NCBI GenBank assembly: GCA_026991575.1
Contig: JALXBF010000184.1
Span: 1 to 33,605, forward strand
Direction of reading: 5' to 3'
From: Planctomycetota bacterium
GTDB taxonomy: Bacteria; Planctomycetota; Planctomycetia; JALXBF01
Length of the DNA: 33,605 nt
Under the pieces are notes generated by a model that saw only the letters and a list, made by a program, of their open reading frames with translations, was not told the DNA's origin and did not search any database. The position numbers and the translations under genes were made by a program. Shown here piece by piece: positions 24,579 to 29,791 of the stretch (its first letter is position 1; each line of letters starts with the position of its first letter).

Positions 24579-24628
24579 ACCACGAAGCGTAGACTCCAGG
24601 GCGCAGAACCACCAGGAGGAGGCGTGCG

Positions 24629-24868
24629 ATGAAGGTCAAGATCGTCTTCTGCTCGGTCTGAAACTACGAACCGCGAGCCGTCAGTTTGACGGAAAAGATT
24701 CTGACGACCTTCAAACGGCAGGTCGAAGAGCTGACGCTGGTTCCCAGTGACGGTGGTCGATTCGAGATCTATGTGAATGGCGACCAGATTTACTCCAAGC
24801 TGGAGACCGGCGAGTTCCCGGACGAGGACAGCATCATCGAGCAGCTTCAGGCGAAGCTGCCGGCTTGA
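24629..24868 (+). CDS. SelW-like (Rdx family) selenoprotein
   Basis: ATG 24629 follows a very strong AGGAGGAGG. The frame reads MKVKIVFCSV, then TGA at 24659-24661 as codon 11, then NYEPRAVSLTEKIL, and continues to TGA at 24866-24868: 79 residues with selenocysteine at position 11. The C-S-V-Sec motif matches the redox CxxU/CxxC of the Rdx family (SelW/SelT/SelH), and the rest (GRFEIYVNGDQIYSKLETG then EFPDEDSIIEQL) is typical of its thioredoxin-like fold. It probably acts in cytoplasmic thiol redox chemistry. Read without recoding it would look like a 60-residue fragment starting at TTG 24686. The neighbouring selD, selB, selA and tRNA-Sec supply the machinery for inserting selenocysteine. 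Confidence 0.93.
24662..24692 (+). promoter_or_regulatory. bSECIS element of the SelW-like gene
   Basis: After the UGA at 24659-24661, a 6-bp stem CCGTCA / TGACGG (24678-24683 and 24687-24692) with loop GTT (or 5 bp with loop AGTTT) lies 16 bases downstream. This distance and the small G-containing loop fit bacterial SECIS hairpins, which SelB binds. The pairing is seen; the SelB contact is inferred. Confidence 0.7.
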
Positions 24869-24894
24869 GCTCTGGCGTACCAGCGCGCAATCGG

Positions 24895-24941
24895 GCCGAC
24901 CAGCGAAGCGCCCCCGGGAGGCTTCGCCGGTCGGCTTTTTT
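24895..24941 (+). terminator. Rho-independent terminator after the SelW-like gene
   Basis: GCCGACC-A-GCGAAGC (24895-24909) pairs with GCTTCGC-C-GGTCGGC (24921-24935) with one A-C mismatch, and six T follow (24936-24941). It stands between the SelW-like gene and selD, so selD depends on readthrough or on a promoter I cannot identify in the 56 bases before it. Confidence 0.85.
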
Positions 24942-24997
24942 GTTTCCGCTAGTTCTGGGCAACAACCGGGCTGTTCCGGCATCATGGAGCCGTACCG

Positions 24998-26053
24998 ATG
25001 AGCACCGGTCGTGCTGCAAGACTGACCAACTACGCAAGCTGCGCGGGGTGAGCGGGGAAGTTGCCCGCGGAGGGCACCGCACAGGTTGTGCGGCAGCTAC
25101 CGAAGTTTGACGATCCTAACCTGATTGTCGGCGCCGAGCATTTCAGCGACGCCGGGGTCTACCGGCTCCGGCCTGACCTGGCCATCGTGCAATCGGTCGA
25201 CTTCTTCCCACCGCTGGTGGACGACCCGTTCGTGTTCGGGCAGATTGCTGCGGCCAATTCGATGAGCGATGTTTACGCCTGTGGGGCCCAGCCGCGCACG
25301 GTGCTGAACATCGTCGGCTTTCCGGACACCGAGCTGGAGCTGGCGGTCCTGGAGCAGATCCTGGCCGGGGGGGCCGAGCGGGTCCGTGAGGCTGGCGCGG
25401 TCGTAGTCGGTGGTCACAGCGTGCGGGACAGTGAAGTCAAGTACGGTCTGGCTGTGACCGGCACGGTGCATCCGGACGAGATCTTCACAAACGACGCGGC
25501 TCGACCGGGCGACGTCCTCTACCTGACGAAGCCGCTGGGGACGGGTTTTGTCACCACGGCGAACAAGAAGGGGGCCTGTCCGCCGGAGCTGCTGGATGCT
25601 GCATGCCGCAGCATGATTACGCTGAACGCGGCGGCCAGCCACGCCGCACGGGAGGCGTCGGTGTCGGCCGTGACGGACGTTACCGGCTTTGGGCTCATCG
25701 GACATGCGCTCGAGTTGGCGATGGCCAGCAATGTGACCGTTGTGCTGCGGCTCAACCAGGTTCCTTACTTCGACGGCGTTCTTGACCTGGTCCGGGCTGG
25801 TTTTCGGAACCGGGCCGTCAAGGGGAACCGTGCCTGGGCGGCGCCGCACGCGGAGTTTCAGTGTGAGCCGGACGATCCGTTGCTTGATCTGATCTGTGAC
25901 CCGCAGACCTCCGGTGGTCTGCTGATCAGCGTGCCGCAGCAGCGGGCGGCGCGGTTTGAGCAGGCCGCGCAGCAGGCTGGCGTTGCAACGGTTGCCCGCA
26001 TCGGGCACGTCGAACCGTTCGCCGAAAAATACCTGGTGATCACCGCAAGCTGA
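24998..26053 (+). CDS. selD: Selenide, water dikinase SelD, itself a selenoprotein
   Basis: SelD makes selenophosphate from selenide and ATP. The frame starts at ATG 24998 (GGAG upstream), reads MSTGRAARLTNYASCAG, then TGA at 25049-25051 as Sec18, then AGKLPAEG and onward to TGA 26051-26053 (351 residues). The Cys15-x-x-Sec18-x-x-Lys21 pattern matches the active-site loop of SelD, where the second position is Cys or Sec in different bacteria. VTDVTGFGLIGHALELA, and GGHSVRDSEVKYGLAVTG earlier, are family marks. A conventional call would start at about 25061 and lose the catalytic loop. It precedes selB by 125 bases (counting from the selB start at 26179). Confidence 0.95.
25052..25080 (+). promoter_or_regulatory. 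selD: bSECIS element of selD
   Basis: Directly after the UGA, GCGG (25052-25055) pairs with CCGC (25077-25080), then a six-base bulge (GGAAGT), then a 5-bp upper stem TGCCC / GGGCA (25062-25066, 25072-25076) with loop GCGGA. The upper hairpin begins 10 bases after the UGA and a T (25061) sits at its base, similar to the E. coli fdhF element with its 11-base spacing. Function is inferred from this geometry. Confidence 0.75.
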
Positions 26054-26110: not shown

Positions 26111-26178
26111 ACGCAGTGTCCGTCAGACCCGCTGCCGGCGCATCGGTGCTCGATGGCGCAGCGAAGGGCTTTGAGCCG

Positions 26179-28158
26179 ATGTCAGGCGAACAGCGAAGGT
26201 ATTACATCCTGGGCACGGCCGGCCACATTGATCATGGCAAGACCAGCCTCGTGCGCGCGATGACCGGCATCGACACGGACCGGCTGCCCGAGGAGAAGAA
26301 ACGCGGCATCACGATCGACATCGGCTTCGCGCGGCTGGACTTGGGCGATGTGCGGCTCGGTGTCGTGGATGTGCCCGGCCATGAGCGCTTCATCAAGAAC
26401 ATGGTGGCAGGAGCCAGCGGCGTGGACCTGGTGCTGCTGGTCGTTGCCGCCGACGATTCCGTCATGCCCCAAACGCGCGAGCACCTCGAGATCCTGCAGC
26501 TGCTTGGTGTGCGCCACGGTGCCATCGCCCTGACGAAGATCGACCTTGTCGACCGCGACTGGCTCGAGCTCGTCGAGGAAGACGTGCGCAGCCTGGTGGA
26601 AGGTACCTTCCTGGCGGACGCTCCCATCGTGCGCACCTCGGCAGAGACCGGAGAGGGAATCGAGCAACTGAAGGAAACGCTCCGAGCGGTCTGCCACCGC
26701 GTCAGTCGAGAGCGTCGTGACGAGTTCTTCCGCATGGCCGTGGACCGGTCGTTTGCGGTGCAGGGCTACGGCACGGTGGTGACCGGGTCGGTCTGGTCAG
26801 GAGTGCTCCGCGTGGGCGAAGAGGTTGAGTGGCTACCGGCCCAGAAGCGACTGCGCGTACGGAGCCTGCAGAACCACGAGGAGCCGGTGGAGGTGGTGCG
26901 CCGCGGTCAGCGCGCAGCCGTGAACCTGGGCGGTGTGCATCACACCGAGATCCAGCGCGGCCACGAGATCGCAACGCCCGGTCTGCTGCGGCCGTCTCAC
27001 CTGATCAGCGTCGAACTGCGCGTTCTCCGCTCCAGTCCGCTGCCGGTGAAACATCGCCGCCGTGTGCGGTTGCACGTGGGCACGGCAGAGACCATAGCGG
27101 TCGTTTCGCTGCTGGATGCGAACGAATTGCGTCCGGGCGAGGTCGGATTGGCTCAGCTTTTCACCAGCGACCCGGTCGCCGTCAGTTGGGGTCAACCGTT
27201 CGTGGTGCGGGCCGAGAGTCCGCTGGTGACGCTGGGCGGTGGCCGGATCCTGCAGCCGGTGGCCAGGCGAATCAGCCGGAGGCACACGGAGCGGCTCGAG
27301 CGGCTCGAAATGCTACGCAGCGCGGACGTGACCGAGCGGGCTGATGCCGCACTGTGGTTCTACCGGTTCGATCCGTGGACGCCGCTGGATCTGGCGCGCG
27401 ACACGGGTGCGAGTCGATCGGAACTGGACAGTGTGCTCGGCGAGCTGCGCGGTCGAGGCATTCTGCAGGAGCTTCCGCTCCGCCAGCGTAGGACCGTGCT
27501 CGTTCACCGCGACGTGCTCGCTGCCCTGCAACAGCGCCTGCTGCGGGCGGTGGAGGAACTGCATCGTTCGGCGCCGCTGCGGCTCTACCACCCGGCTCAC
27601 CAGGTGCTCAGCCTCGTGCAGGGAGTGGCAGAGGAAGCGGTGCTTCAGGCACTGTTGGAGCGGCTGCTGAAGCAGGGGGAACTCGTCGGCTCGCCGTCCG
27701 CTCTGGCTCGCCGCGGCCACACGCCGAAACTGACCCAGGCCGAGACAAGACTGAAGGAAAGCTTGGTCCAGGAGATCACCGCCAACCGGTTTACACCCCC
27801 TGATCTTGGCGCGCTGGTACGCGCCAGCGGGGCAAAGGAGGAAACGGTGCGCCAGCTTCTGGAGTTGGCCGCAGCCGAGGGGGCGCTGGTGGCGGTCTCC
27901 GAGACGATCTACCTGGCTAGCACCGTGGCCGAGCAGCTGCGCGCCGCGGTCCGCGAAGCACTGGAACGGAAACCTGAAGGCATGACGGTCGCCGAAATCC
28001 GCGACCTGTTGGGAGTCAGCCGCAAGTACGCCGTGCCTTACTGCGAATACCTGGATCGTATCGGACTGACGGAGCGGCGTGGCGATCTCCGTGTGCTCGC
28101 GTCGCCGACAGCAGCCGGGGCAGCCAGCGCAGAAGGGGCTTCGGAGTCGAGCGGCTGA
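26179..28158 (+). CDS. selB: Selenocysteine-specific elongation factor SelB
   Basis: SelB carries Sec-tRNA to the ribosome at UGA codons marked by SECIS. The 659-residue protein has the GTPase motifs G1 [11 protein letters not shown]2 [11 protein letters not shown]3 DVPGHERF and G4 TKID in the first ~190 residues, then EF-Tu-like beta-barrels, and from about residue 400 to the end the winged-helix repeats that bind the SECIS RNA ([17 protein letters not shown], and near the end [19 protein letters not shown] then [16 protein letters not shown]). ATG 26179 is chosen because family members begin shortly before GHIDHGK; a GTG at 26116 would add 21 residues. Its TGA stop overlaps the selA ATG by one base (28158). 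Confidence 0.96.
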
Positions 28159-29573
28159 TGGACAAACAGGACCAAATCCAACAACTGCTGCGGGCCCTGC
28201 CTTCGGTCGACCGACTGTTGGAGCATCCGAAGGTCCGAGCTCTGCAGGGGGAGCTGGCCCGAGGACTGTTGGTCCGGGCAGTACGGCGCGCGCTGGATCA
28301 GGCTCGCTCTTTGCTACGCGGCGGCGGCGGGGCCTCTGGCGCGGATATCGATGCGCTGCTAGAACGGCTCCTGGATCTGGAGCTTGCTGCCGCGACGCGT
28401 CATCGCCTACGTCCCGTCATCAACGCCACCGGTATCCTACTGCACACCGGTCTGGGCCGCGCTCCACTGGCCGAGAGCGTCGCACGCCACGTCTACGAAG
28501 CAGCCCACAACTACGTCTGCCTGGAGATTGACCTCGACAGCGGCCGCCGCGGCAAGCGTACGGCTCTGGTGCGCGATCTCCTCTGTGAGCTGACCGGGGC
28601 CGAAGCCGCGACGGTGGTGAACAACAACGCAGCGGCGACGGTGATCGTCCTCGCTGCCCTGGCAGCCAACAGGGAGGTCGTCGTCTCGCGCGGGGAGTTG
28701 ATTGAAATCGGCGGCAGCTTCCGGCTACCAGAAATCATGGCCGTCTCTGGCGCCGTGCTTCGCGAGGTCGGTACCACCAATAAGACCCGGCTCGCCGATT
28801 ACGAACGGGCCATCGGCGAACGGACCGCAGCACTGATGAAGGTGCACACGTCCAACTACCGCGTGGTCGGGTTTAGCGAAGCGGTGCCGATCGAGGAGCT
28901 GGTCCGGCTCGGCCGGCGATACGGTCTGCCCGTGATCGACGACATCGGCTCCGGCGCGCTGGTGGACCTGGCTGCCATTGGCCTGGCAGGTGAGCCGGTG
29001 GCGGGACGGTCAGTGAGGGCGGGGGCTGACGTGGTGCTGTTCAGTGGTGACAAGCTCCTGGGGGGGCCTCAGGCGGGCATCATCGTCGGTCGCGCGGCGG
29101 TGATCGAACAGATCGAGCGGCACCCACTAGCGCGCGCGTTCCGCGTCGATAAGCTGACACTCGCTGCGCTGGAGGCCACGCTTCGGCTGTACCTGGACCC
29201 GGACACGGCCTGGCAGCAGGTGCCGGTGCTTGCCATGGCCGCCGCGCCGGAGGCGGTGGTGCGGGCCCGCGCCGAACGGCTCCGAACACAACTGGCCGAG
29301 CTGCCCGGGGTAAACGAGCTACTGATGCGACCAGACCAGGCTTATGTTGGTGGCGGTTCGCTGCCGATGCAGGCGATCAAGACCTGGGTTGTGGGCGTGC
29401 GGTCGACCGGACTCAGCGAGCAAGAGCTGGCCCGCCGCCTACGCACCGGCGACCCGGCGGTTGTGCCGCGTGTGCAAGATGGCCTGGTGCTGTTCGATGC
29501 CCGTACGGTGCGTGACGATCAGGTAGCGTCGGTTGTCCGGGCCGTGGCGGCGGCGCTGGCATCGGACGGTTAA
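28158..29573 (+). CDS. selA: L-seryl-tRNA(Sec) selenium transferase SelA
   Basis: SelA turns Ser-tRNA(Sec) into Sec-tRNA(Sec) with selenophosphate, using PLP, as a large ring-shaped oligomer. The 471-residue product has LLRALPSVDRLLEHP at the N-terminus, the substrate-binding segment INATGILLHTGLGRAPL, the catalytic lysine loop FSGDKLLGGPQAGI, and the DIGSGALVDL strand that binds the cofactor. Length is close to E. coli SelA (463). The start codon shares a base with the selB stop, so the pair is translationally coupled. tRNA-Sec follows 121 bases after the stop. Confidence 0.97.
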   Translation: MDKQDQIQQLLRALPSVDRLLEHPKVRALQGELARGLLVRAVRRALDQARSLLRGGGGASGADIDALLERLLDLELAAATRHRLRPVINATGILLHTGLGRAPLAESVARHVYEAAHNYVCLEIDLDSGRRGKRTALVRDLLCELTGAEAATVVNNNAAATVIVLAALAANREVVVSRGELIEIGGSFRLPEIMAVSGAVLREVGTTNKTRLADYERAIGERTAALMKVHTSNYRVVGFSEAVPIEELVRLGRRYGLPVIDDIGSGALVDLAAIGLAGEPVAGRSVRAGADVVLFSGDKLLGGPQAGIIVGRAAVIEQIERHPLARAFRVDKLTLAALEATLRLYLDPDTAWQQVPVLAMAAAPEAVVRARAERLRTQLAELPGVNELLMRPDQAYVGGGSLPMQAIKTWVVGVRSTGLSEQELARRLRTGDPAVVPRVQDGLVLFDARTVRDDQVASVVRAVAAALASDG

Positions 29574-29694: not shown

Positions 29695-29791
29695 GGGAGT
29701 GTCTGCACGCCTGGTGGCGGCCCCGGGCTTCAAACCCGGTGCGAGGTCTGGCGAGCAGGCCTCGGGTGGGTTCGATTCCCATACACTCCCG
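29695..29791 (+). tRNA. selC: tRNA-Sec (anticodon UCA)
   Basis: The 97-base sequence has an 8-bp acceptor stem GGGAGTGT / ACACTCCC with discriminator G, a T-arm GTGGG TTCGATT CCCAT, an anticodon arm CCGGG CTTCAAA CCCGG with TCA at positions 34-36, and a long variable arm around GAGGTCTGGCGAGCAGGCCTC minus its last bases. An 8-bp acceptor stem, UCA and a long extra arm are specific to bacterial tRNA-Sec. CCA is not encoded. It ends the selenocysteine locus. Confidence 0.97.

Follow-up and report, generated by a model that had tools for sequence, protein, structure and literature searches.

A planctomycete rdx gene upstream of selD, selB, selA and selC probably encodes a SelW-like CxxU selenoprotein

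The window analysed here, a stretch of 33,605 nucleotides from a bacterium of the Planctomycetota, carries on its forward strand a small SelW-like gene, rdx (24629..24868), whose eleventh codon is an in-frame UGA (24659..24661). Read through this codon, the product has 79 residues and the sequence MKVKIVFCSVUNYEPRAVSLTEKILTTFKRQVEELTLVPSDGGRFEIYVNGDQIYSKLETGEFPDEDSIIEQLQAKLPA; selenocysteine (Sec) would occupy position 11 in a CSVU motif. A Shine-Dalgarno-like AGGAGG (24614..24619) lies nine bases 5' of the ATG at 24629, in agreement with the strong ribosome-binding site claimed in an earlier note on this DNA, and the frame closes with a TGA (24866-24868). As that note had anticipated, what a standard gene caller could offer is a 60-residue open reading frame (ORF) starting at a TTG (24686-24868). 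Directly 3' of rdx and on the same strand follow selD, encoding selenophosphate synthetase (24998..26053, by profile matches), selB, encoding the Sec-specific elongation factor (26116..28158; TIGR00475, 386.9 bits), selA, encoding selenocysteine synthase (28158..29573; TIGR00474, 559.4 bits) and selC, the tRNA-Sec with anticodon UCA (29695..29791; ARAGORN and Rfam RF01852, 73.3 bits). The earlier note made no mention of these four genes. selD has an in-frame UGA of its own (25049-25051, in a CAGU motif) with a hairpin downstream. Between rdx and selD lies a likely Rho-independent terminator (24893..24943, forward strand), formed by a long stem rich in GC with U6 behind it (-32.2 kcal/mol, z -3.55), which a simple terminator scan did not list.

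The read-through product matches Pfam Rdx (PF10262) with 81.9 bits (cut-off 22.6) over residues 2-73 and NCBIfam TIGR02174 (SelT/SelW/SelH family) with 72.2 bits (cut-off 34.2). Both matches span the UGA, and the Rdx-type sequence proposed downstream of it continues to residue 73. The product also aligns over residues 3-73 to NF041051 (SelTWH_Campy, a SelT/SelW/SelH family (seleno)protein), scoring 81.7 bits against an equivalog cut-off of 88 bits. Cys-type Rdx proteins of known structure (2p0g, 2fa8 and 3dex) belong to the same family and have an aligned redox motif. 2p0g and 2fa8 carry CxxC (CRQC/CTQC) where the window protein carries CxxU, and their second Cys aligns with residue 11. Homologues with Cys at this position, suggested beforehand as a check, are thus provided by these two proteins, as well as by Cys-type Rdx proteins of related genomes; homologues ending at residue 10, or without Cys or Sec at residue 11, were not seen among the relatives examined.

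In the Sargasso Sea set (PMC1088965), SelW-like selenoproteins with CxxU ranked first in abundance, with 48 genes, and the family again came first in the GOS set (PMC2398784), with 427. For complete bacterial genomes it was noted that Sec-using organisms have few or no Cys forms of SelW-like proteins (PMC1794560). A 2026 review of prokaryotes (PMC13188914) assigns the family to PF10262 and gives it CxxU and a single Sec. One paper has described planctomycete selenoproteins, but its main text names neither SelW nor Rdx (PMC4807772). The gene had been described as overlooked, which holds for plain gene callers but not for the family, since TIGR02174 and the published selenoprotein surveys describe it. 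With bacterial SelW-like proteins (PF10262/TIGR02174) rdx shares the family match, an N-terminal CxxU with the UGA aligned to the second Cys of CxxC forms, a single predicted Sec, a host with SelA, SelB, SelD and tRNA-Sec, and a SECIS-like hairpin just 3' of the UGA with G in its apical loop, weak by single-sequence energy alone. No defining difference separates it from them; it is a planctomycete sequence of this family. Judged from sequence, rdx is a real selenoprotein gene of the well-known bacterial SelW-like family, with every family feature that could be tested and none that is new.

The hairpin that had been noticed after the UGA corresponds to a putative bacterial SECIS apical hairpin (24677..24693, forward strand; GCCGUCA-GUU-UGACGGA) with an invariant GU in the loop; in the window's own copy the outermost G-A of the seven stem positions is unpaired. 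Taken as a single sequence, its folding energy does not go beyond that of dinucleotide shuffles (z about -0.5), and only the comparison with relatives makes the hairpin convincing. Across 34 distinct UGA-rdx sequences its first base is the 16th past the UGA, and it has a stem of seven base pairs and a loop of three bases. Standard pairs fill 93.7% of the stem cells, compensatory changes on both sides occur at five of the seven pairs, the covariation score was reached by none of 500 shuffles, and the pairing is lost when the partner is slid by 1-3 columns. Because the stem falls within the codons of the conserved AVSL residues, two controls took the coding constraint into account. When the genes were recoded synonymously, hairpins were weaker on average (-6.0 kcal/mol versus the observed -10.5 kcal/mol), and in 35 of 35 genes the observed hairpin was more stable than the mean of its recoded versions. 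The Ser codon in the loop is AGU in all 33 genes with Ser there, as compared to 9 of the 105 other Ser codons of those genes. Third-position entropy of the UGA-rdx genes collapses at codons +7 to +10 past the UGA. In six UGA-rdx genes (L097, L124, L139, L141, L149 and L151) the loop codon is AGC or GCC instead of AGU/GGU, and these lineages may have a SECIS that is displaced or of another form.

Our genome set comprised 99 genomes, i.e. the window's own genome and others of the same class. After inspection of partial matches, 34 of them contain a UGA-interrupted rdx, and SelB scores above cut-off in 44. SelB is present in 33 of the 34 UGA-rdx genomes versus 11 of the 65 others (Fisher p about 1e-15, shared ancestry ignored) and in none of the five genomes with Cys-type rdx only (p about 1e-5, shared ancestry again ignored). 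The sole UGA-rdx genome without SelB, G043, is a fragmented assembly of 600 contigs in which a UGA-containing selD is present. Two weak Rdx matches proved to be UGA-type genes in genomes with SelB, one with an apparent frameshift (L034 in G029), the other with loss of the first Cys and other decay (L035 in G091). A match in G058 was rejected, as on inspection it does not resemble an Rdx protein. Beyond this set, a search of GTDB genomes for the best-scoring relatives gave 80 named loci, all 80 with UGA at the rdx codon, though a search of this kind is no unbiased census of Cys forms. These loci are mainly from Planctomycetota, and also from Acidobacteriota, Poribacteria, Chloroflexota, Nitrospinota and one bin labelled Bacteroidales; the highest identity of the window protein to the sampled named relatives is 63%.

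The central claim of the earlier note, that of a SelW-like gene with a C-S-V-Sec motif and its UGA in a conserved frame, is borne out by family matches across the UGA and by retention of this codon in relatives. A single base change would turn a Cys codon (TGC or TGT) into UGA, and the decayed look of L035 would also fit a Cys-type rdx broken by mutation or sequencing error and yielding no full-length product. Conservation across genomes already contradicts such a loss: the UGA is kept in dozens of genera from several phyla, the rest of the frame is intact, the hairpin is conserved and UGA-rdx is strongly linked to SelB. We regard a broken gene as extremely improbable. No more credence is due to read-through without selenocysteine, be it by near-cognate decoding as Trp or by reassignment of UGA. 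It would fit the open frame past the UGA taken alone, but selA, selB, selD and tRNA-Sec are all present, the UGA coincides exactly with the redox Cys position, and UGA serves as the terminal stop in rdx and in most relatives.

UGA 24659, which aligns with the Cys of solved homologues and with the UGA of relatives, almost certainly codes for selenocysteine. We are highly confident that rdx encodes a SelW-like selenoprotein with a CxxU redox motif. Comparison with relatives shows its frame, its family, the conserved place of the UGA, the conserved hairpin and the co-occurrence with SelB; selenocysteine insertion, fold, redox activity and partners are what we infer. SelB with Sec-tRNA would read UGA 24659 as selenocysteine, guided by the SECIS hairpin within the coding sequence 16 bases 3' of this codon. 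From homology to the solved Rdx structures, a thioredoxin-like Rdx fold is expected for the product, which would work as a small redox protein of the thiol-selenol type and form a selenenylsulfide between C8 and U11. As a clean and correctly read example of selenoprotein genes that plain gene callers miss or shorten, rdx serves as the anchor for a broad set of planctomycete UGA-rdx genes.

The position of rdx beside selD would be explained if Rdx, besides being a selenoprotein, served selenium assimilation, e.g. by shielding reduced selenium near SelD or passing it on. Of 19 UGA-rdx genomes searched for both genes, 10 have rdx immediately 5' of selD, and of 71 named contigs that were scored, 17 have selD a short way 3' of rdx. 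However, rdx is far from selD in many relatives, and adjacency may reflect only shared transfer or shared selenium regulation. Moreover, the GC-rich stem and U6 in between make it probable that rdx forms its own transcript here, suggesting that it is not co-transcribed with selD. This strong terminator-like element argues against an assimilation role, which we consider unlikely, and it counts as a point against the selenoprotein explanation given above as well.

The idea that the Sec machinery serves Rdx alone was rejected. Its own genome holds six further UGA-interrupted oxidoreductase ORFs (L067-L072), five matching AhpC-TSA and one CMD, each with one in-frame TGA. In five of the six the UGA lies in a recognisable redox motif, namely PVU (peroxiredoxin), PGU (Bcp-like protein), UPVC, UGGC and CEYU; the sixth reads LNUIAC. 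These six are likely to be selenoproteins, and Rdx is thus one of at least eight probable selenoproteins, a lower bound for the genome. A search of the genome for a Sec-type formate dehydrogenase found Cys in the two closest proteins. The genome would thus use selenocysteine in several oxidoreductases while its formate dehydrogenase-like molybdenum enzymes are Cys-type. Run against the genome, a SECIS model built from rdx matched rdx alone; since it missed the hairpins of selD and of peroxiredoxin genes, it is unusable for counting selenoproteins.

In three relatives (L101, L128 and L152, recovered also as L153-L155) both redox positions are UGA codons (Y-U-x-M-U), and the two UGAs, nine bases apart, are followed by a single SECIS-like hairpin. 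Among 398 genomes of the class, three from two genera show the UxxU form, and L152 differs very little from L144, a CxxU protein. At least two origins are forced by the starred branches of an 81-sequence tree, in which many forks are weak because it rests on few columns. All three are metagenome bins, in which base errors are possible; error is less credible since three different sequences share the change. To our knowledge, the UxxU form is otherwise restricted to eukaryotic SELENOW. PMC7539508 reports UxxU SELENOW from amphioxus and Ostreococcus, and for the SelW-like family the 2026 prokaryotic review gives only CxxU (PMC13188914). The amphioxus and Ostreococcus proteins show the same change as the three planctomycete relatives, whereas the window protein is CxxU; their hosts are eukaryotic and their SECIS is of eukaryotic type. 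It is conceivable, if quite improbable, that the SelW-like protein of this lineage, at the head of the sel cluster, handles selenium and that some relatives moved to a two-Sec UxxU form with a diselenide centre and one hairpin. The UxxU relatives are a natural experiment on what a second selenium contributes to proteins of the SelW-like type, and on how one SECIS hairpin is shared by two UGAs at a distance of nine bases.

Two side observations concern the relatives. One genome with SelB (G076 C190) has a second, Cys-type Rdx (L046) with an in-frame UGA elsewhere (GF-UGA-GTF), which may be a nonsense mutation, an error or an unusual Sec site. In four genomes (G008, G038, G053 and G056) the SelD matches lie in frames of 739-856 amino acids, and SelD is probably fused to another domain there.
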